From Flocculibacter collagenilyticus (lineage in GTDB: Bacteria; Pseudomonadota; Gammaproteobacteria; Enterobacterales; Alteromonadaceae), in contig NZ_CP059888.1 in assembly GCF_016469335.1 (NCBI RefSeq), positions 3,857,899 to 3,921,898 of the forward strand: 64,000 bases of DNA, given 5' to 3'. The notes under the pieces were generated by a model, which saw nothing but the letters and a program-made list of their open reading frames with translations, was not told the origin of the DNA and did no database searches. Shown one piece after another: positions 35,655-47,412 of this stretch (its first letter is position 1; each line of letters opens with the position of its first letter). The position numbers and the translations under genes were made by a program.

Positions 35655-36350
35655 GTGGCTAAATCTCGATTCAATTACACAGGCGCAACGTTTTTAACTA
35701 GCGCGCCAGATATTCGCAGACTACCTAACGGTGGAATGGAAGTCGCATTTGCTGGTCGTTCTAACGCCGGTAAATCTAGTGCCTTAAACACGCTAACTCA
35801 CCAGAAAGGTTTAGCAAGAACCAGTAAAACCCCGGGTCGTACTCAGCTTATTAATGCGTTTGATATTGGCGAAGATCGCCGCCTTATCGACTTACCTGGC
35901 TATGGCTTTGCAAAAGTACCACTAGAAATGAAGCTGAAATGGCAAAAATCATTAGGTGAATACTTAGAAAAGCGCGAATGCTTACGTGGCTTAGTGGTAT
36001 TAATGGACATTCGCCATCCGATGAAAGATCTCGATCAAGATTTAATTTTTTGGGCGGTAGACAGCAATATCCCTGTTTTAGTGCTACTTACCAAGGCAGA
36101 TAAATTAAAATCCGGTAAGCGCAAAGCGGAACTGTTAAAAATTCGCGAAGCTTCACTCGCTTTCCAAGGTGATGTTACGGTGCACGCCTTTTCATCGTTA
36201 AAACACTTCGGGGTGAAAGAGCTATCGCAAAAACTTGATGAATGGTTCAGTGATGATTTTGGCCAAGATAACGCAGCAGCCAATGGCGCAAACAGTGAAG
36301 AGGCTCAGCACATCAGCACACTAGCTGACGAAGACGATCAAGCTTCATAG
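35655..36350 (+). CDS. engB: Ribosome-assembly GTPase EngB (YihA/YsxC)
   Basis: 231 residues. G1 GRSNAGKSS, the switch region [13 protein letters not shown]3 [10 protein letters not shown] and G4 TKAD are all present. It is required for assembly of the 50S subunit. The C-terminus has an acidic extension of about 25 residues ([20 protein letters not shown]) beyond the usual end. The ATG or GTG choice is clear: GTG 35655 follows TAGGAGCTTAGC. Confidence 0.95.
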
Positions 36351-36594: not shown

Positions 36595-36626
36595 AAAAAA
36601 AAAACCAGCTGACAAATTCAGCTGGT
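36595..36626 (-). terminator. Intrinsic terminator of the candidate small RNA
   Basis: A perfect 9-bp stem (36604-36612 with 36618-36626), a five-base loop, and a long T-run on the minus strand. Confidence 0.85.
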
Positions 36627-36698
36627 TATAGCAATCGGGGAGAAGCTATTCAAATTGTTAAATCTACAGGGCGTTTTTAATCGAACAAATTAAAAACT
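36595..36698 (-). ncRNA. Candidate small RNA with a CUCCCC loop
   Basis: About 104 bases on the minus strand between engB and the helicase gene, with a promoter (-10 TATAAT) and an intrinsic terminator but no ORF. Predicted structure: a 5' hairpin GTTTTTAAT/ATTAAAAAC, a single-stranded middle, a 5-bp hairpin ATAGC/GCTAT whose 12-base loop contains CTCCCC (complementary to ribosome-binding sites), then the terminator ACCAGCTGA/TCAGCTGGT with nine T. This is the layout of an Hfq-dependent regulator. I do not recognise it as a known family. Confidence 0.6.
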
Positions 36699-36704
36699 GA
36701 TGCC

Positions 36705-36733
36705 ATTATACCCAACCAAATAAAAAATTAAAG
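36705..36733 (-). promoter_or_regulatory. Promoter of the candidate small RNA
   Basis: A perfect -10 TATAAT (36705-36710) with a weak -35 (TTTAAT or CTTTAA, spacing 16-17). The stretch CTTTAATTTT upstream is shared with the Spot 42 promoter at 44239. No other feature is seen in 36734-36918. Confidence 0.55.
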
Positions 36734-36918: not shown

Positions 36919-39609
36919 GTGTTGAATATTAAAAACACCCTTTCTTATTATCGAGATTGCTATAAAGAAGACAGCGCAGATCTTAATTTATGGAATCTCA
37001 CTAAACTAAATAGCGAAGATTACCTCATCTTAGAAGGGCAAGATGACTTAGGCTCTGGTTTTCTTCCTAGACTTCCCATACCTGAAAGTTTTGCTTCGCA
37101 AATGATAAAGCGTATCAATTTGTATCAAAGAGAACGAGTGCTACTGTATGCCCGCTTTATGATTACAGGAAGACTAGAGATAAATGGCGAAGTGAAAACT
37201 GTTGTAGCACCATTAGTATTCAATGAGGCTGAAATAATAAAAGATAAAGGTGATTATTACTTTTCATTAAAAAGTCACGTACTAGAAATTAATGAGTCAT
37301 TAATTCAAACTCTCTTACCAGAAGGAAATAGCACTTTACAAGATGATAACTTAGGTGATTACCACTCTCCATCCTATTGGACTGCGTTATTAAAGAATAG
37401 CCCTCACAAACTAAACCTTGTTGAGCTACTAAATTATCCCTCACTTGTAGATGCCAAAGCGTTAAAAAGAGCACTTAGACAGAAAATACCCTCACTACTG
37501 CCAGCCTCTGTGCTTGCATTTGTTGAAAGATCAAAAAGCAATCGAGGTATTCTGCATGAGCTCGAAACAATAATTTCTTCAGATACATTATCACCTCCTT
37601 TAGCAAACCTTTTTGATACCTCTAACACGCCGTATTATCAGAAAAAACTAAAGTATGACTATCTGCCGGGGTTACTTTCCATTTCTCAAAAAAAGGTTAT
37701 TTCCATTGCGGCGAATGCAAGTTTGGGCTGTGTTTCAGGGCCACCAGGAACAGGCAAAACTTACACAATTGCAGCAATAGCAGCAGAGCATATCGCAAGA
37801 GGTGAATCGGTACTTATTGTTGCAAACAATGAGACAGCTCTTGATGTAATCTCAGAAAAATTAGAGGGCAACTTTAATCTTGGAGATGTATCTATTAGGG
37901 CTGGTCAAAGTGAATTCCTAAAAAAGTTAAAAAGCTACATATCTGATCTACTATCTGGCTACTACTCCAACGATATACAAACACACCCTATAACATGCGA
38001 ATCAGAGTTAAGTGAAATTAATAACACCTTAAATAAACTAGAAAAACGCTTTATTAAGTATTGTCAAAAAACGGTGTATAACGGCCAAAGAATAAAGCGC
38101 CTTGATGAAAGTAATTCGCGCTGGATGAAAAGCATATATTTAGCTTTTACTCGAAATGAGATCCACAGGTTAACCCAAGAGTGGTCCTCTTTAGAGAAGA
38201 TCAACTCTAAGCAGTCAATACGAGAAAAGCTTGCAAGTAATTATCTAAATGCAATAAAAAATGAGAATTTAAAAACGCTAGTTGAAACGCATCGAAAATC
38301 ACTTCAGGCCTTCAACAAGGCTATTCGTAGTCGAACATCAAAAAAACAATTCGAGCAATTTAACGATATTGAATACTCAGCACTACTGTCAGCTTTTCCA
38401 GTTTGGCTTGTAAGCCTAAATTCATTGTATCGAGTATTACCATTAAAAGCAGAAATGTTTGATTTAGTGATTATTGATGAGGCGACACAGTGCAATATTA
38501 CTAGCTGTTTGCCTGCGCTATATCGCGCAAAAAGAGCGATAGTGATAGGAGATACGAAACAACTAAAACATTACTCCTTTCTCGCTAAAAATAAAGAGGC
38601 TCAACTCTTATCTAAAAATAACGTATCAACCAGTACTAATGGTGTACTGAGCTATCGAGACAACTCCATTCTAGATCTAGCATTATGTATGCTTAATAGC
38701 CATCAGCAACTTGCCTTTTTGGACGAACATTTCAGAAGCAAGCCGGAAATAATTCATTTTAGTAACCACTCTTTTTACCAAAATAAGCTAAAAGTTATGC
38801 AGCACAGACCCTGTACCAGTAGTGGGTATCTTCATGTTAAGCGAGTGAATGGCATTAGAAATAATGCAGGGATAAATGAGATAGAAGCATCGCACCTGAT
38901 CGAATCAATAAAACAACAAATTAATGAAGATGGCCAAACGGGACTAATTCACAGTATTGGTGTTATTTCTCCATTTAGACATCAAGCAGAATACTTGTCT
39001 AAGACTGTTAATTCTTGTTTTACTGAGTCTGAGATCACTAAACATAAAATACGCGTAGCAACGCCGTTTGGATTTCAAGGGGAAGAAAGAGATGTCATGT
39101 TCATTTCTTTTGCAGTAGATAATAATTCAAAGAGAACTACGGCATACTTAAACAGAGAAGATGTGTTTAACGTCACCATTACTCGCGCAAGGCAGAAACA
39201 AGTGTTGTTTTTATCTATAGACGAAGCAACGCTTTCAGAAAGCAACTTATTGAAGCGATACATGAATTCAGTTGGTCAGTTTAAAGCGATTCATTTAACA
39301 AAGCCTCAACTTGACGAGTTTCAGAATGAAATTATATCGGAATTAAAAAAACTAAAAATAGAAACATGGTCTGGGTATACGATTGCGGGAGTTGAAATAG
39401 ATATTTTGTGTAAACATAAAGATAAATATCTTGCACTTGACCTAATTGGATACCCTGGACCATGGGAAGGCTTCTTTGAGTTAGACACATATAAAATTTT
39501 CAAACGAGCAGGAATTGAGGTGTTACCGATTAGCTATAGCTTATGGGTTATCAATAGAAGTGTTTGTAAAGAGAAGATTGTAAATATGCTGGGCGCTAAT
39601 CAAATATAA
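36919..39609 (+). CDS. Superfamily 1 helicase with possible C-terminal nuclease domain
   Basis: 896 residues. Walker A GPPGTGKTYT (about residue 275), Walker B LVIIDEATQCN and the UPF1-like motifs GDTKQLKHYSF, LDEHFRSKPEI, TPFGFQGEERDVMF and NVTITRARQKQ define an SF1B (Upf1/Dna2-like) helicase. A 130-residue helical insert separates motifs I and II. The last 70 residues (VEIDILCKHKDKYLALDLIG, then a YKIFKRAGIEVLPI stretch) resemble a VSR/PD-(D/E)xK fold, although catalytic residues are uncertain. The GTG start follows GTGGA. It is a single gene with no partner. Such helicase-nuclease proteins occur in phage defence, but a repair role is equally possible. Confidence 0.8.
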   Translation: MLNIKNTLSYYRDCYKEDSADLNLWNLTKLNSEDYLILEGQDDLGSGFLPRLPIPESFASQMIKRINLYQRERVLLYARFMITGRLEINGEVKTVVAPLVFNEAEIIKDKGDYYFSLKSHVLEINESLIQTLLPEGNSTLQDDNLGDYHSPSYWTALLKNSPHKLNLVELLNYPSLVDAKALKRALRQKIPSLLPASVLAFVERSKSNRGILHELETIISSDTLSPPLANLFDTSNTPYYQKKLKYDYLPGLLSISQKKVISIAANASLGCVSGPPGTGKTYTIAAIAAEHIARGESVLIVANNETALDVISEKLEGNFNLGDVSIRAGQSEFLKKLKSYISDLLSGYYSNDIQTHPITCESELSEINNTLNKLEKRFIKYCQKTVYNGQRIKRLDESNSRWMKSIYLAFTRNEIHRLTQEWSSLEKINSKQSIREKLASNYLNAIKNENLKTLVETHRKSLQAFNKAIRSRTSKKQFEQFNDIEYSALLSAFPVWLVSLNSLYRVLPLKAEMFDLVIIDEATQCNITSCLPALYRAKRAIVIGDTKQLKHYSFLAKNKEAQLLSKNNVSTSTNGVLSYRDNSILDLALCMLNSHQQLAFLDEHFRSKPEIIHFSNHSFYQNKLKVMQHRPCTSSGYLHVKRVNGIRNNAGINEIEASHLIESIKQQINEDGQTGLIHSIGVISPFRHQAEYLSKTVNSCFTESEITKHKIRVATPFGFQGEERDVMFISFAVDNNSKRTTAYLNREDVFNVTITRARQKQVLFLSIDEATLSESNLLKRYMNSVGQFKAIHLTKPQLDEFQNEIISELKKLKIETWSGYTIAGVEIDILCKHKDKYLALDLIGYPGPWEGFFELDTYKIFKRAGIEVLPISYSLWVINRSVCKEKIVNMLGANQI

Positions 39610-39680
39610 GTGATGACATAATCAAAGAGCCTGTATTGAACTTAGGACAACACAAATTTCCAAGCACTACTAGCTTAACT

Positions 39681-40217
39681 TTACTCAGATTTCATACTTT
39701 TATTTAGCAGCATGGTTTGTAACTTATTAACCGTATTTAAGTTTCTTCCTGTTGCATCAACACCAAGGCACTTTTCAATATTAGCAACTAACTTGGAACG
39801 GCCAATACCGTCAGGTGCATATAAATAAAACACATGATTATGGTATGCGTACAGCTCGGTTGGTGTTTTAAGCTGGTTAATCTTATCTAAATCAAGGCTA
39901 GGTTGTGGCTGGCAGAAATAATAATGCACTAGCTTACCTTCGCGCTGTTTAAACGGGTTATTTGCTAATGCTTCGTTAAACGCATCTAATGTGAGTATCA
40001 TCAATGATGGTTTAAACGAAAATTGTTGCTCAATGGATTTTTGAATAGTATCCGTACATGGCAACTGTTCACTTTGAAATACTACGTTGCCAGTTTGAAT
40101 GTAGGTTTGTATATGGTGATAGCCCAACGTTTCAAGCAAAGGCACTAGCTCTTTCATTGGCAGTAAGTTTTTGCCACCTACATTAATTGCACGTAAGAGC
40201 AGAATATAGGTACCCAT
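39681..40217 (-). CDS. DUF1697 family protein
   Basis: 178 residues. The start YILLLRAINVGGKNLLPMKEL and the following GYHHIQTYIQTGNVVFQSE are the signature of DUF1697, a small family without proven function, found across bacteria. The second half (KLVHYYFC and a conserved DGIGRSKL) agrees. It is convergent with the helicase gene and may be co-transcribed with the phosphatase upstream (25 bases apart). Confidence 0.88.
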   Translation of the reverse strand: MGTYILLLRAINVGGKNLLPMKELVPLLETLGYHHIQTYIQTGNVVFQSEQLPCTDTIQKSIEQQFSFKPSLMILTLDAFNEALANNPFKQREGKLVHYYFCQPQPSLDLDKINQLKTPTELYAYHNHVFYLYAPDGIGRSKLVANIEKCLGVDATGRNLNTVNKLQTMLLNKSMKSE

Positions 40218-40242
40218 AATGTATCCTTTACGAATTAATTGG

Positions 40243-41277
40243 TTATAGCAGCTTTATTTTTTCACCCGTATAGGTGCCGCGGTATGCAGACTGATTATTA
40301 AAAAGTAATATTTCACCGTCTTCACCGTTTTTGATGCTGGTATCAACAGCAAAAATGCGACCATCATTTAGTTGTTTTATTTCTTCGCCTGATGTGTGAC
40401 CAACAACAATGCGTGATGCTTTTAATATACTAAGAATTTGATCAACCACTGTATTGGTTAACCCCGCATCAAAATACCCTCGGTACCAAATTGGCCCTGA
40501 AGAAGCATGTAACTGCGAGTAAATAGGGTGCTGCTTCACTGCGGTTTTAGACAAACCGATACTGGCTCGAAAATGCTGATTAATGTCGTGTAAATCTAGC
40601 TGTGAAGAGAGTAATTTTGTTGAAATACCGCCGTGTAAAAATACCGTATCATTAATTTTTATCACCGTAGCTTTTGATCTTAACCAACGACCTAAAACAG
40701 TTTGCTCATTAAACAGCGCCTTGTAATCCGTATTAAGTAACGTAGCCGTTTGATGGTAATTAGGGTGTAAATAATCTAGTCGACCACGTAATACCATGTA
40801 TTCATGATTACCTAATAAAAAATGCACCTTACCACCAGCAGCCTTTGCCTGTTGCTCTAAATTGAACACAAACCATAAGCTATCTAGCACTTGCGGCCCT
40901 CTATCGAATATATCACCCGTAATGACTAAGTGTCCGTCTCCATATATCCATTGATGTTGCTGATTAATAACCTTGTTATTTTTTAAGATATTAAGAAAAA
41001 TATCATGCTGACCGTGGATGTCACTGATTGCCGCAATATGAGTCACACCTTGATAGTACGTCGCTTCTGCAGCAAAGTCGGTAGGGAATGTTTGCTCACT
41101 ACGTTGGACTATGACCTTACCGTTTTCAATCGACTTACTAATAAACTTATCACCTTCAATAAGAATATAAGGACCATCGTTAAACGGATTAGTGTTTATT
41201 GATTGTGCGGCTGCACTGATGCTCATTAACAGGTTGATGAATAAAACTAACCCTACAGCGTTATATGCGTGTTTCAT
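40243..41277 (-). CDS. Exported Shewanella-like protein phosphatase
   Basis: 344 residues with a signal peptide (VGLVLFINLLMSISAAAQS). The metallophosphoesterase motifs are complete: DIHGQHD, GDIFDRGP, LGNHEYM, a histidine in FLHGGIS and VVGHTSGE. Sequence order and length match the Shewanella-like phosphatases of the PPP superfamily, which remove phosphate from proteins and use two metal ions. Being exported, its substrates would be in the periplasm. ORF boundaries are clear. Confidence 0.88.
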   Translation of the reverse strand: MKHAYNAVGLVLFINLLMSISAAAQSINTNPFNDGPYILIEGDKFISKSIENGKVIVQRSEQTFPTDFAAEATYYQGVTHIAAISDIHGQHDIFLNILKNNKVINQQHQWIYGDGHLVITGDIFDRGPQVLDSLWFVFNLEQQAKAAGGKVHFLLGNHEYMVLRGRLDYLHPNYHQTATLLNTDYKALFNEQTVLGRWLRSKATVIKINDTVFLHGGISTKLLSSQLDLHDINQHFRASIGLSKTAVKQHPIYSQLHASSGPIWYRGYFDAGLTNTVVDQILSILKASRIVVGHTSGEEIKQLNDGRIFAVDTSIKNGEDGEILLFNNQSAYRGTYTGEKIKLL

Positions 41278-41327
41278 TAAAAGGTAACCCTCAATAGTAC
41301 TTTATCTTTTGGTACACAGTTATCTCG

Positions 41328-41813
41328 TTAAGCATCCATTTTAATGCAGTCGCCCGCTAGGTGCTCGACATCAATGTCTGTTTTATTTTGACCTATCGCA
41401 GTCATCCCCTTTACTGCCTCTGCATAGCCACACAGCCATGAAATAGGGCTAACTGCACTACCTTCAACGACCGCTGGACGAAAACTTAAATACTTTCCCT
41501 GTAACGGTTCCGGCACATTGTTGCCAAGAAGGATATGAATTGCGCCATTTTTAATTGATACACTTTCTATTTTATTAGAAATAAGCTTATCAGGCGCAGG
41601 CAACCCTGCTTGTTGGTTATTTTCAGGAAAGCGCAGATGTTTTCCATAATACTCAGTAACGGGTTGACGGATATTGTCAGCGTATTGGTAAGCTTCAACG
41701 ACATGCGTTTTCAAGGTGTACATATGATATTGAGGTAATGCAACTGATGACAAAATGCCAACTATTGCGACCACAACCATCAATTCTATCAGTGTAAATC
41801 CATTTTCCTTCAT
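41328..41813 (-). CDS. Type IV pilin-like protein
   Basis: 161 residues. The prepilin leader MKENG is followed by the conserved FTLIELMVVVAIVGILSSVALPQY, with the leader-peptidase site after G5, the glutamate at mature position 5 and one hydrophobic helix. The globular part contains two cysteines near the end (LCGYAEA, GDCIKMD) that may form the D-loop disulphide. Its start overlaps the stop of the PilC-like gene by four bases, so the two are translated together. No other pilus genes are close. Confidence 0.9.
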   Translation of the reverse strand: MKENGFTLIELMVVVAIVGILSSVALPQYHMYTLKTHVVEAYQYADNIRQPVTEYYGKHLRFPENNQQAGLPAPDKLISNKIESVSIKNGAIHILLGNNVPEPLQGKYLSFRPAVVEGSAVSPISWLCGYAEAVKGMTAIGQNKTDIDVEHLAGDCIKMDA

Positions 41814-42667
41814 GACATTACTTCTCCAATTGAAAAGATAGGGATATAAATATTAATAATATAAAATGCGATGCTGCAGAAAAGGATGGGTGCCAGTAAC
41901 AGCTGCATTCTACTTATCATTTGCCACACTTTTTGTTCCAATCTCTCTGTGTGTTTATTAAATAAGCTAAATAATTCAATATTTTTATCTAATCCCAACT
42001 CACTTATTGTATGGATCTTTTTATACAGTTCGCTATCAAGGCTTTCATCTTTTATGGGCAGTGTAATAATATTGTTAAGTTCATTCACTTCTAACAATAT
42101 TGACTTGGGTAAAATAGATTTCTGCCACTGAGTGGCTCCTTGAATGATGATCTTATCCATATTTTTGATCAACACACTGATCATAAAGCTAAACGCGATT
42201 ATGCTTGCAGACACTATCAAGCCTACCATCCAAACCATATTAAATGCTTCAAAATAAGGATTATTTAATCGTGGATATTGCGCAATGAACTCAGAAAAAA
42301 CAGGGTGCACAAACACCTTATGAACACTACTAAGCGCGATGTAAATCAACGCTAAAGACACCATATAATAAAGCTTATTTAATATTGACTCATACTTTTT
42401 TGACGCTTTTAGTTTCTGTTCTAAATCTAGCCCAGCATAATAAGCCAGCGCACTGTGCTCAACCTTTAGACCTGCACTCACTTGCTTATTGCTAACGACC
42501 GCGGCGCGTTCAAATAAGCTTTGCTGCGCTGGCTCAAGTTGATGATTTGAATGAAGTGTAGATAATCCACTGTTCTGATACTGCTGCTCGGCTTCAGCAA
42601 TAGTTCGTCCTTGCTGTAGATATTGTGTGAAAAAACGGCACTTAAAATGAAACTGTGGCCAACTCAT
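41810..42667 (-). CDS. Short PilC/GspF-like inner-membrane assembly protein
   Basis: 285 residues. The C-terminal segment (LAPILFCSIAFYIINIYIPIFSIG) matches the end of PilC/GspF proteins, and there are three membrane helices (about 97-115, 146-172, 257-277). Normal PilC or GspF has about 400 residues and two T2SF domains; here only one cytoplasmic domain lies between helices. A cytoplasmic N-terminus with the ...QQGRTIAEAEQQY pattern precedes the first helix. It probably helps to assemble the pilin encoded just downstream, and would need an ATPase from elsewhere. Confidence 0.7.
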   Translation of the reverse strand: MSWPQFHFKCRFFTQYLQQGRTIAEAEQQYQNSGLSTLHSNHQLEPAQQSLFERAAVVSNKQVSAGLKVEHSALAYYAGLDLEQKLKASKKYESILNKLYYMVSLALIYIALSSVHKVFVHPVFSEFIAQYPRLNNPYFEAFNMVWMVGLIVSASIIAFSFMISVLIKNMDKIIIQGATQWQKSILPKSILLEVNELNNIITLPIKDESLDSELYKKIHTISELGLDKNIELFSLFNKHTERLEQKVWQMISRMQLLLAPILFCSIAFYIINIYIPIFSIGEVMS

Positions 42668-42788
42668 ACTGTCCTTGTTTATGTGTAAATAAATGTGGGC
42701 TGGTATATTATATTTTTATTAATATTGTTGCAAAACATGTTCGTAAGTTATCAGCCCAATAAACCACTATCTATGTATACTCTTGCAC

Positions 42789-43715
42789 TTACTCCACAAT
42801 AAAAGCTAATCCACCCACGATTGCAGCCACTTGCGCATTAATACAATTTTCGTCGTCTACTTTTGGGCTGTCTGGGTAAACTTCCGTTGTTGTTTTATAT
42901 ATCGCATTCGTCACTCCCATACACAGCCCTAACCCTGCTGCTGCGTAATTAATGACACCTTCTTGCTCAATGGCGACCCCAATTAATTTGCCGTTTTCAT
43001 CGGCTGGGGCTATATGAGTAACTTTCGCAACAGATTCTATAATAGCGGTTTGAAAGGCAGTTTGTGGCTGCTTAACGTCGGCAACTAAATAAAAGCCGTC
43101 TGGAATATTCCAATTAGTATGAGTAGAGGCGTCACGGGCAGCTAAAGCAGGTCGGAATTCGGTGTTGTCAGTATCGGTCGTTTCATGTAAATCGAAATGA
43201 GCAATAATTTCACTGGTAATGTTTGCTTGAATGCTAGATAGACACTCCATTAGCTTCGCTGACTCTTCCGCTGGGCTATTACTCAAAAATGAACGATTTG
43301 GATCGACGGCATTGGGATTCCATCGATTAATCGTTTCATATCCCCATGGACTCACACAGGGCACAACCAGAATATTAAATTGGTTCTGGTATTCAGTGGC
43401 AACGGTTTCCAAAAAACGAATCGCGCCATGAACCCCACTGGTTTCATAACCATGAACGCCACCAGTGACTAACACTGTGGGCTTAGTTTCGTCCCACTGC
43501 TGACTTTTCACAATGTATAGTGGATAGCGTGACTCATCATAAGAAAGCGCACCGTACTGCTCTACACTGAAACGGTTAGCTAACGGTGTTATTTTTGCTA
43601 CCACTTCCTCTTGATATGAGCGCTTAACACTTTGCTGAGCCAGCCAGGTTTGCTTTTCTTCTTGTTGCCATTTTTTACCGGGTTGACCAATCGGATAAGC
43701 TTGCTGTTGAGTCAT
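42789..43715 (-). CDS. M14-family metallocarboxypeptidase (succinylglutamate desuccinylase-like)
   Basis: 308 residues. The zinc-site motif is VLVTGGVHGYETSG, with the second ligand region AHFDLHETTDTDN, and the substrate-binding stretch is WNPNAVDPNRSFL. This pattern belongs to the M14 group that includes AstE/aspartoacylase-like and gamma-glutamyl-peptide enzymes. There is no signal peptide, so it is cytoplasmic. Substrate unknown. The 73-residue DUF gene lies just upstream on the same strand. Confidence 0.82.
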   Translation of the reverse strand: MTQQQAYPIGQPGKKWQQEEKQTWLAQQSVKRSYQEEVVAKITPLANRFSVEQYGALSYDESRYPLYIVKSQQWDETKPTVLVTGGVHGYETSGVHGAIRFLETVATEYQNQFNILVVPCVSPWGYETINRWNPNAVDPNRSFLSNSPAEESAKLMECLSSIQANITSEIIAHFDLHETTDTDNTEFRPALAARDASTHTNWNIPDGFYLVADVKQPQTAFQTAIIESVAKVTHIAPADENGKLIGVAIEQEGVINYAAAGLGLCMGVTNAIYKTTTEVYPDSPKVDDENCINAQVAAIVGGLAFIVE

Positions 43716-44151: not shown

Positions 44152-44232
44152 AAGAAAAATTGCCCCAGCAGGTGCCTGCCAGGGCTAAACAAAAGGTTTG
44201 AAGATAACAACCTTCGTACCTCTGTACCCTAC
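44152..44232 (-). ncRNA. spf: Spot 42 RNA, shortened form
   Basis: On the minus strand the RNA begins GTAGGGTACAGAGGTA, the same 16 bases as the start of E. coli Spot 42, continues through a hairpin with an AACCTTTT segment (AGACCTTTT in E. coli), and ends in an 11-bp terminator stem GCCCTGGCAGG/CCTGCTGGGGC followed by AATTTTT. It lies downstream of polA in the same direction, as in E. coli. At about 80 bases it is roughly 30 shorter than the E. coli RNA; the long unstructured middle region is mostly missing. It regulates carbon-use mRNAs with Hfq. Confidence 0.9.
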
Positions 44233-44238
44233 AGGCGA

Positions 44239-44268
44239 AACTATACACACCTAATAAAGAAAATTAAA
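44239..44268 (-). promoter_or_regulatory. Promoter of Spot 42
   Basis: TATAGT (-10) lies seven bases before the first base of the RNA; the -35 is weak (TTTAAT, spacing 17), which fits a promoter under activator or repressor control such as CRP in E. coli. Confidence 0.6.
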
Positions 44269-44581: not shown

Positions 44582-47356
44582 TTAATGCGCTTCATCCCAA
44601 CAATCACCCACATCAGCTTCTGCTAATAATGGAACATCTAAACTAGCCGCATCAGCCATAATCGCTTGTATTTTAGGTATCACTTGATCAACCGCTTCAT
44701 TTTTTACCTCAAACACTAATTCATCGTGCACTTGCATGATCATGGTTACATCGTCACTGGCTTCCGCATCAATCCAGTTAGCAACTTTAATCATTGCTAG
44801 TTTAATAATGTCAGCGGCCGTGCCTTGCATCGGAGCATTAATCGCAGCACGCTCTGCGGCTTTTCGTCTGGCACCATTTTGTGCTTTAATTTCTGGTAAG
44901 TGTAATCGACGGCCAAAAATAGTCTCTACATAGCCCTTATCTCTTGCAGACTCGCGCGTACGTTCCATATATTCAAGCACACCAGGAAAACGCTCAAAAT
45001 ATAAATCCATATACTTTTGCGCTTCGCCACGCGGAATATTTAGCTGACGAGATAAACCAAATGCTGACATGCCATAAATTAAGCCAAAGTTTACTGCTTT
45101 TGCGCTGCGTCGTTGTTCACTAGTCACCTTGTCAATTGCCACATCAAACACTTCCGCAGCCGTTGCTTTATGAATGTCTTGGCCACTAGCAAATGCATTT
45201 AATAAGCCTTTGTCTTGCGATAGGTGCGCCATTATCCGTAACTCTATTTGTGAATAGTCAGCCGCCACAATTTTATGGTCTTTTGGTGCAATAAATGCCT
45301 GACGAATACGACGACCTTCCGCATTACGAATTGGAATATTTTGCAAGTTAGGATCGGTTGATGATAAGCGCCCTGTTGCTGTAACGGCTTGGTGATATGA
45401 CGTATGAACTCGCCCTGTATGCTCGTTCACCATCAACGGCAGTTTATCCGTATAAGTTGATTTAAGCTTACTTAAGCCGCGGTGCTCAATAATGATTTTC
45501 GGTAATGGGTAGTCATGTGCCAATTCTACCAACACTTCTTCAGCAGTAGATGGTGCACCTTTTGGCGTTTTCTTAATAACAGGTAAGCCCAGCTGCTCGA
45601 ATAAAATTTCTTGCAGCTGCTTTGGGGATGCTAAGTTAAACTCTTTACCTGCAATGTCATAGGCTTCTTGTTCTAGCTCCATTAAACGTACAGCTAACTG
45701 CTGGCTGTGTACGTTTAGCGTTTGGCTTTCAATTAACACACCATTTCGTTCTACTTGAGATAACACCGACACCAACGGCATCTCTATATCGTTAAACACG
45801 GTCAAAAGGCTTGGTTCTGCTTCTATTTTCGGCCACAGTGCTTGATGTAATCGCAAAGTAATATCTGCATCTTCCGCGGCATAAGGAGCAGCTTGCGCTA
45901 AGTCAATTTGATTAAAGGTTAATTGTTTTTTGCCTTTACCTGCAATCTCTTCAAAGCTAATGTTTTTATGCGACAGGTACTTAAGTGCTAAGCTATCCAT
46001 ATCATGACGCGAGCCCACACTATTAAATACATACGACTCCAACATCGTATCGTATTTAATACCACGTAATACGATGCCAGCACGTGCCAATACGCTTTTA
46101 TCGTACTTCAAATTTTGGCCAACTTTGGCGTGTTCTTCGCTTTCTAATATCGGCGCAAGCGCCTTAAATACTACTGCTTTGGAAAGCTGTTCAGGTGCAT
46201 CAATATAGTCATGGGCAAGGGGTAGATACGCAGCCAGTATTTTCCCGTCTTTTTCTACCGCAAATGACATACCAACCAACTCTGCTTTCATATAATCTAA
46301 GCTGGTGGTTTCCGTATCAAAAGCAAACAGTTCAGCTTCTTTTAATAAAGCACACCAGCTGTTTAAATCAGTTTCAGTTAATAGCGTTTGGTAAGCACTG
46401 CGATCGATGGTAGGCGCTGACTTAACAGGCTCTGCACCTAAATTGTGCTGTGCCGCCTGTTGAATTGGGCTTGTACCATCTAACACTTCTGCCAGCCAAC
46501 GCCTAAATTCACAAGCGCCGTACAATTCTGCTAATCGATCAGCATCTGGCTCTGTCACTTTTAGCTGCTCGATGTCTTCGTCCACTTCAACATCAAGTTT
46601 GATCGTCGCTAATTCATAAGACAGTGTTAATTGCGCTTTGTGCTCTTGCAATTTTTCAGGCATTTTTTTCGAGCCGCGAAAACCAAGATCAGCCACTTTA
46701 TCAATATTTTCATAAATACTTTCAATTGATCCCAAGCCCTGCAATAGTGCCAGTGCAGTTTTTTCTCCGACTCCTGGTAAGCCCGGAATGTTATCAATTT
46801 TATCGCCCATCAACGCTAAATAGTCGATGATCAGATCAGCTTCTATGCCAAATTTTTCTTTTACGCCTGCTGGATCTAATACGGTGTCTGTCATGGTATT
46901 GATTAACGTCACATGCTCATTAACCAACTGTGCCATGTCTTTATCACCCGTACTGATTAGCGTATGGTGACCTTGCTTAGCAGCATGACAAGCCAACGTA
47001 CCAATCACATCATCGGCCTCTACGCCTTCAATGCTAATTAACGGTAAGCCCATGGCTTTAATGATGTTATGTAGCGGCTCTATTTGCGTACGCAAATCGT
47101 CCGGCATTGGTGGGCGATGCGCTTTATAGTCAGCATACATATCATTACGGAACGTAGGACCTTTGGCATCAAATACCACCACCATATGCGTAGGTTCAAA
47201 CTGCCTAATTAAGCTTTTAAGCATGTTTACTACACCATAAATGGCACCTGTTGCTTCACCTTTTGAATTAGTGAGATGCGGTGGAGAATGATAAGCGCGA
47301 AATAAATAGGAAGAGCCGTCTACAAGAATAAAAGGATTTTGCGGAATCTGAGCCAT
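44582..47356 (-). CDS. polA: DNA polymerase I
   Basis: 924 residues from ATG 47356, whose protein start [19 protein letters not shown] aligns with the start of E. coli PolA; a GTG at 47374 would add six residues. Three domains: 5'-3' exonuclease (to about 290; [18 protein letters not shown]), 3'-5' exonuclease with the acidic motif FDTETTSLD intact, and the polymerase with [14 protein letters not shown], the O-helix [14 protein letters not shown] and HDELVFEV. It fills gaps and removes RNA primers. The complete proofreading site distinguishes it from Bacillus/Thermus enzymes. Confidence 0.97.
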
Positions 47357-47412
47357 TTTGATCTTCTCAATCACAAATTAATTGTTGTTTATAACAGAAT
47401 ATGAACCCTAGC

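Follow-up and report, generated by a model that had tools for sequence, protein, structure and literature searches.

A very probably real and apparently undescribed small RNA convergent with engB in Flocculibacter collagenilyticus and its relatives

The window analysed in the current work, a stretch of 64,000 nucleotides from Flocculibacter collagenilyticus (contig NZ_CP059888.1, positions 3,857,899 to 3,921,898 of the forward strand), very probably encodes a real and apparently undescribed small RNA, the features of which are listed in Table 1. A first-pass annotation had delimited here a unit of about 104 nt, characterized by a consensus -10 hexamer, three hairpins and a strong intrinsic terminator, and each of these elements was recovered, the fold having a z-score of about -4. 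The fold energy of the unit ranges from -25.7 to -26.7 kcal/mol versus means of -14.3 to -15.3 kcal/mol for shuffled sequences (z = -4.00 to -4.25), and none of 200 shuffles equalled the native sequence for any of three choices of ends. The 12-nt loop was likewise retrieved, in hairpin 2, and the claim that the unit is devoid of an open reading frame (ORF) was upheld, as no ATG is present in the unit when its sequence is read directly, and no ORF of at least 80 amino acids covers it in the ORF list (the minimum of that list being 80 amino acids). Judged from these signals, the unit would possess its own promoter and intrinsic terminator, as is expected of a trans-acting base-pairing RNA. There is little doubt that the unit represents a real small RNA.

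Table 1. Positions, within the window, of the small RNA, its promoter and the neighbouring features
Feature	Position	Strand	Remarks
Small RNA unit	36698 to about 36595	minus	~100-104 nt; predicted 5' end ~7 nt past the -10
Covariance model match	36697-36598	minus	63.7 bits
Near-palindrome TTAGAGTAAATACTTTAA, 18 bp	36745-36728	minus	overlaps the -35; conserved
-10 hexamer TATAAT	36710-36705	minus	consensus
Hairpin 1	36697-36673	minus	fold prediction; covarying in relatives
Linker CCCUGUAGAUUU, unpaired	36671-36660	minus	counterpart of C(U/C)UGUUGA of relatives, one base different here
Hairpin 2	36649-36628	minus	stem AUAGC/GCUAU, 12-nt loop UUCUCCCCGAUU
Loop core CUUCUCCCC	36645-36637	minus	inside the hairpin 2 loop
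Intrinsic terminator	36627-36595	minus	10-bp stem 36627-36603, then eight T (U run)
ORF presumed to be engB/yihA	35655-36350	plus	convergent with the small RNA
Terminator-like site of engB itself	36391-36416
Gene block between the small RNA and Spot 42	36919-43715		~7 kb, helicase-like gene first
Degenerate Spot 42 (spf) copy	44154-44242	minus	adjoins polA; carries a GTAGGGTACAGAGGTA start
HexR-type box	44291-44277	minus	reads GGTAATAAAATTACA; ~58 nt upstream of where Spot 42 starts
Possible further small RNA	~44475-44403	minus	between polA and Spot 42; TTTTTTCTCTCCC, then a GC-rich terminator
ORF presumed to be polA	44582-47374	minus	translation used to find polA in relatives

The presence of the small RNA in relatives was assessed by scanning a named genome collection for the 18-bp box of the promoter followed by AGCTTCTCCCC at 62-92 nt, which yielded at least 119 loci, with approximately two chance matches being expected by estimation. 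The listed loci mostly belong to Shewanella, Rheinheimera, Arsukibacterium, Alishewanella, Alkalimonas and Ferrimonas, and they also include Parashewanella, one Algicola, one genome labelled Marinobacter and several MAGs assigned to Gammaproteobacteria only. Among these 119 listed loci, engB is convergent and downstream in all 113 where it was found, polA is located upstream on the same strand in all 108 where it was found, and not one locus lacks both genes. A simple pattern representing the 5' motif of Spot 42 was matched 209-301 nt before the loop core in 50 of the 119, and 112 contain the linker C(U/C)UGUUGA. The locus labelled Marinobacter nauticus (L176) holds a Ferrimonas-type copy adjoining engB and, because this copy is like those of Ferrimonas balearica (L111 and L116), the assembly may be mislabelled or mixed. 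At the level of the family, blastn matched 52 of 295 genomes, the matches covering the loop in 44 cases and only the terminator or a hairpin in eight, according to a reading of the match ranges. A first covariance model (R1) obtained matches in seven of the 394 genomes of the order; as it finds only members of similar linker length, it is no measure of distribution. Not all members of the family possess the RNA, the core being absent between spf and engB in five of them (G005, G014, G015, G030 and G032). In genus g19 (L003, L025 and L049), the RNA core was observed with extra linker sequence and behind a different promoter without the box.

Comparison among relatives, which the first-pass annotation had suggested as a check, revealed that the stems are preserved by compensating changes. 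The two sets of sequences used, as well as the promoter statistics given below, were derived from the first 80 of the 119 listed loci together with other loci, the remaining 39 being left aside. In 33 distinct Alteromonadaceae-type sequences (from 42 matches), 12 of the 19 pairs were changed on both sides, with 96 double-change cells versus 27.8 in shuffles, 95.7% of cells being paired versus 33-49% when the structure was slid, and a covariation score of 0.405, compared with 0.116 for shuffled sequences and no more than 0.083 for slid structures, in an alignment which was fitted to the model and leans towards the structure. In 40 Shewanella-type sequences, aligned by MAFFT and provided with an RNAalifold consensus, double changes were found for 11 of 26 pairs and 97.8% of cells were paired, the shuffle control covering the 33-sequence set only; this second set was obtained from 45 sequences of Shewanella/Ferrimonas type by dropping L113 and four rows of Ferrimonas type. 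Hairpins 1 and 3 display strong compensatory change. Hairpin 2 exhibits no covariation in either set, and it is uninformative with respect to structure because four of its five pairs never vary in the 33-sequence set; its loop is unpaired and almost invariant, and in the 40 Shewanella-type sequences hardly any variation occurs in the stretch that extends from the linker to hairpin 2. A covarying scaffold that carries near-constant unpaired elements is the pattern of base-pairing RNAs, and compensatory structure was found together with the near-constant unpaired seed that is expected of trans-acting members.

The 18-bp near-palindrome, which the first-pass annotation leaves unmentioned, as it does the convergence on engB, has its centre ~38-39 nt 5' of the predicted transcript start and is a probable regulator site. 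The -35 region is without a good hexamer and a simple sigma-70 scan leaves the promoter unlisted; in view of this weak -35, a regulator may plausibly activate it. Box and -10 are separated by 17 nt in 29 of 80 relatives, by 18 nt in 50 and by 23 nt in one, the script used having picked the best match with a mild preference for 15-19 nt, and those box positions which are free of the search pattern are near-constant (77, 80, 77 and 78 of 80 loci). Since the 119 loci had been chosen by their loop core, a search using only the promoter (box and loose -10), which is blind to the RNA body, constitutes a fair test of the loop. Across the 394 genomes of the order, this search returned 42 places in 40 genomes, versus 0 of 394 genomes for a reversed-pattern control, and it matched 26 of the 29 genomes of genus g40, presumably Shewanella. 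Thirty of these places were fetched, of which 27 adjoin engB and/or polA and three are located elsewhere; among the 27, the exact AGCTTCTCCCC is present in 23, AGCTTCTCTCC in one, AGCTTTTTCCC in one and a different body in two. At L341:1500-1700, where the box is next to engB, AGCTTTTTCCC replaces AGCTTCTCCCC, and this may be a diverged member.

Copies of the box were also observed away from the small RNA. Perfect TTARAGTANNTACTYTAA sites in the genome of F. collagenilyticus itself are only two, namely the one in the small-RNA promoter and one ~50 bases before a panB-like gene (named by eye), and a copy with two mismatches precedes an oadG-like gene. Shewanella-type genomes contain three additional perfect boxes, which are situated ~250-370 bases before two genes that we take to be DUF1302-like and one that we take to be fadL-like. 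These extra copies (L053; L059; L227-L229) could possibly represent a regulon of the box-binding factor. Two candidate owners of the box were rejected: the acetate regulator CrbR, as the box is unlike its published ACTU motif, which is of the GAC..GTC type (PMC5715377), and HexR, as the box of the small RNA is without the spacer of TGTAATNNNATTACA. In a scripted test of CrbR, no AGTANNTACT site was detected when nine acs loci from five genomes were scanned.

With regard to its genomic setting, the small RNA occupies the polA-engB position in convergent orientation to engB, and in relatives the real Spot 42 fills the upstream part of this gap, the usual order being polA - Spot 42 - small RNA - engB. 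In relative G017, for instance, Spot 42 is followed by the small RNA, starting ~0.15 kb later, and then by engB. In the window, ~7.4 kb separates Spot 42 from the small RNA, and the block of genes between them is read as an insertion or a rearrangement, the two RNAs being close neighbours in relatives. Because the small RNA and its promoter stayed together despite this distance, the small RNA is regarded as a unit of its own and, having kept its own promoter, it need not rely on read-through from Spot 42.

Spot 42 is a classic example of a small RNA acting in carbon metabolism. The first-pass annotation had placed Spot 42 elsewhere in the window and had concluded that the unit is not Spot 42, and both statements proved correct. 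The degenerate spf copy near polA scores 24.2 bits versus the RF00021 gathering score of 80, and a gathering-score Rfam scan of the window reported tRNAs only and not this copy; over the unit, RF00021 gave no match, whether the gathering score or a limit of E = 10 was applied, and the two RNAs occur side by side in relatives. The small RNA shares with Spot 42 the polA-engB gap, the strand, a similar length, a terminator and a probable metabolic role, but differs from it by a separate promoter box and a different structure. Upstream of Spot 42, the window contains a HexR-type box (Table 1), published as TGTAATTAAATTACA (PMC11906056). Allowing at most 2 mismatches in 12, such a box is found in 66 of 96 distinct spf upstream regions, which are related and not independent, versus 1.75% of mononucleotide-shuffled regions, and Spot 42 may be under HexR control in these bacteria. 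The possible further small RNA that was observed between polA and Spot 42 resembles a VSsrna24-like unit of Vibrionaceae.

At curated scores, Rfam 15 produced no match for the small RNA in the window or in 16 member loci, the latter yielding Spot 42 only (at threshold in five). The covariance search which the first-pass annotation had called for therefore ended with no match at threshold over the unit, in agreement with its description of the RNA as undescribed. Sub-threshold similarity was recorded to Arrc11 (RF02859; 27.5 bits versus a gathering score of 52, E = 0.056), mostly over the promoter, and, at or near the unit, to NsiR1 (RF02399; 18.5 bits versus 39, E = 1.2) and Qrr (RF00378; 16.7 bits versus 50, E = 7). 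RsaE, FsrA and CyaR are trans-acting small RNAs with C-rich loops. The small RNA is likened to these by description, as it would expose a C-rich stretch able to pair with purine-rich ribosome sites, and it differs from them in that C(U/C)UGUUGA provides another unpaired element that is near-constant. It is called a new family, within an already known kind of small RNA, because no description of it was found in the open-access literature, although the S. piezotolerans small-RNA list (PMC5471319) may include it.

VSsrna24 of Aliivibrio salmonicida, as described in its report (PMC3295665), is located immediately downstream of spf, has a length of ~60 nt, is repressed by glucose and is reported to be limited to Vibrionaceae. 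That the small RNA is VSsrna24 or its orthologue might be suspected from the gap between spf and engB and the orientation, which both share, though in the window itself Spot 42 is ~7.4 kb away; the length and the reported limitation to Vibrionaceae contrast with the predicted ~100 nt of the small RNA. Furthermore, several Vibrionaceae loci contain, in addition to the promoter module, a short and distinct CTATTTCTCTCCCGTTGCCCC-terminator unit farther downstream (also written TTTCTCTCCC-terminator), which fits VSsrna24 better than the promoter module does and is presumably its counterpart. VSsrna24 appears to be a different, shorter RNA, and its equation with the small RNA is decidedly unlikely. 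When 22 of 27 Vibrionaceae spf loci were read by eye, 16 (L195, L198, L200, L201, L203-L209 and L213-L217) were found to carry the box (in variant form in one of them), the RNA that follows it having (G/A)CTTCTTGTTC at its start, and the box was absent in five loci of genus g55 and in L202. The Vibrionaceae RNAs that follow this same promoter have not retained the loop. In relative L006, the promoter module likewise precedes a different RNA body, whose start is (G/A)CTTCTTGTTC or resembles it, and in an Rfam search of eight loci (seven of Vibrionaceae and L006) Spot 42 alone reached threshold.

Other functions were weighed against that of a trans-acting base-pairing RNA. A sponge for the neighbouring Spot 42 might be suspected from the adjacency of the two RNAs in most genomes examined and from the opposite expression reported for Spot 42 and VSsrna24 (PMC3295665); yet, in simple duplex energies, mononucleotide shuffles of the small RNA paired with Spot 42 at least as well as the native sequence in 225, 286 and 34 of 300 cases (own genome, G017 and G039, respectively), so that this highly improbable role was rejected, pairing with Spot 42 not being above chance. 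The position of the unit in a convergent gap with engB could indicate only a conserved terminator region or a piece of a longer transcript, which is very unlikely indeed given that the unit has its own promoter and terminator, that the next gene, engB, is antisense and has a terminator-like site of its own (Table 1), and that the terminator varies more than the linker and the loop do. It is also unlikely that the RNA acts mainly by protein binding (CsrA-like titration) and not on mRNA: the constant hairpin loop could serve as a protein site, but it is C-rich and without GGA, and the second near-constant unpaired segment fits base pairing better.

The loop CUUCUCCCC of the presumed base-pairing RNA is complementary to GGGGAGAAG and, because it is near-invariant and unpaired, an anti-ribosome-site mechanism is envisaged, as in the first-pass annotation, in which the loop would plausibly block ribosome sites. 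The numbers of GGGGAGAA sites near an ATG versus those of a reversed-pattern control were 10 versus 14, 11 versus 11, 6 versus 15 and 31 versus 14 in four genomes, an excess being present in one of the four only. In these genomes, 19 ORFs start just after GGGGAGAA, and a VolA-like lipase (PF12262; own genome and G017) was attractive at first because it is the sole orthologous pair among them. GGGGAG precedes the VolA-like ATG in 19 of 27 genomes judged to be RNA-bearing (G229 and G177 solely on account of the range that a weak blastn match covered) and in two of five RNA-lacking relatives (G005, G014, G015, G030 and G032), and three Shewanella-type copies read GGGGAA. These counts were made after G681 and G682 had been dropped as duplicates of G065 and G169, and nine genomes of unverified RNA status had been left out (for G009, no match). 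As a target, the VolA-like lipase failed this control and was rejected, the site being present in two of the five RNA-lacking genomes and missing in eight of the 27 RNA-bearing ones.

The interpretation that we favour, with moderate confidence, is that of an independently transcribed trans-acting regulatory RNA of ~100 nt, which would operate as follows. A transcription factor would bind the box centred at ~-39, probably as an activator because the -35 is weak, and Hfq would hold the RNA through its 3' U run. The loop and the linker C(U/C)UGUUGA would then pair with messenger RNAs, and this pairing would mainly lower the translation or stability of those with G-rich ribosome sites. The targets would probably function in carbon or nutrient metabolism, a role which is proposed because the neighbour is Spot 42.

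More tentatively, and with considerable doubt, the polA-engB gap might be viewed as an ancient small-RNA island that accommodates Spot 42, the small RNA and, in Vibrionaceae, a VSsrna24-like RNA, each with separate inputs. The small RNA would be driven by a dedicated factor whose 18-bp site occurs once or twice per genome searched, and the box would be older than the RNA body because the same promoter precedes a different RNA in Vibrionaceae. If this were true, Spot 42 and the small RNA would report two opposing nutrient states.

The conservation of the box reaches deeper than that of the RNA under its control, an unusual combination of a fixed input with a changing output, and it would provide a route to the regulator. 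For Shewanella and its relatives, which are environmentally important bacteria, this conserved neighbour of Spot 42 would represent a second small RNA, without an entry in Rfam, and a new regulator that is open to direct testing in laboratory Shewanella.
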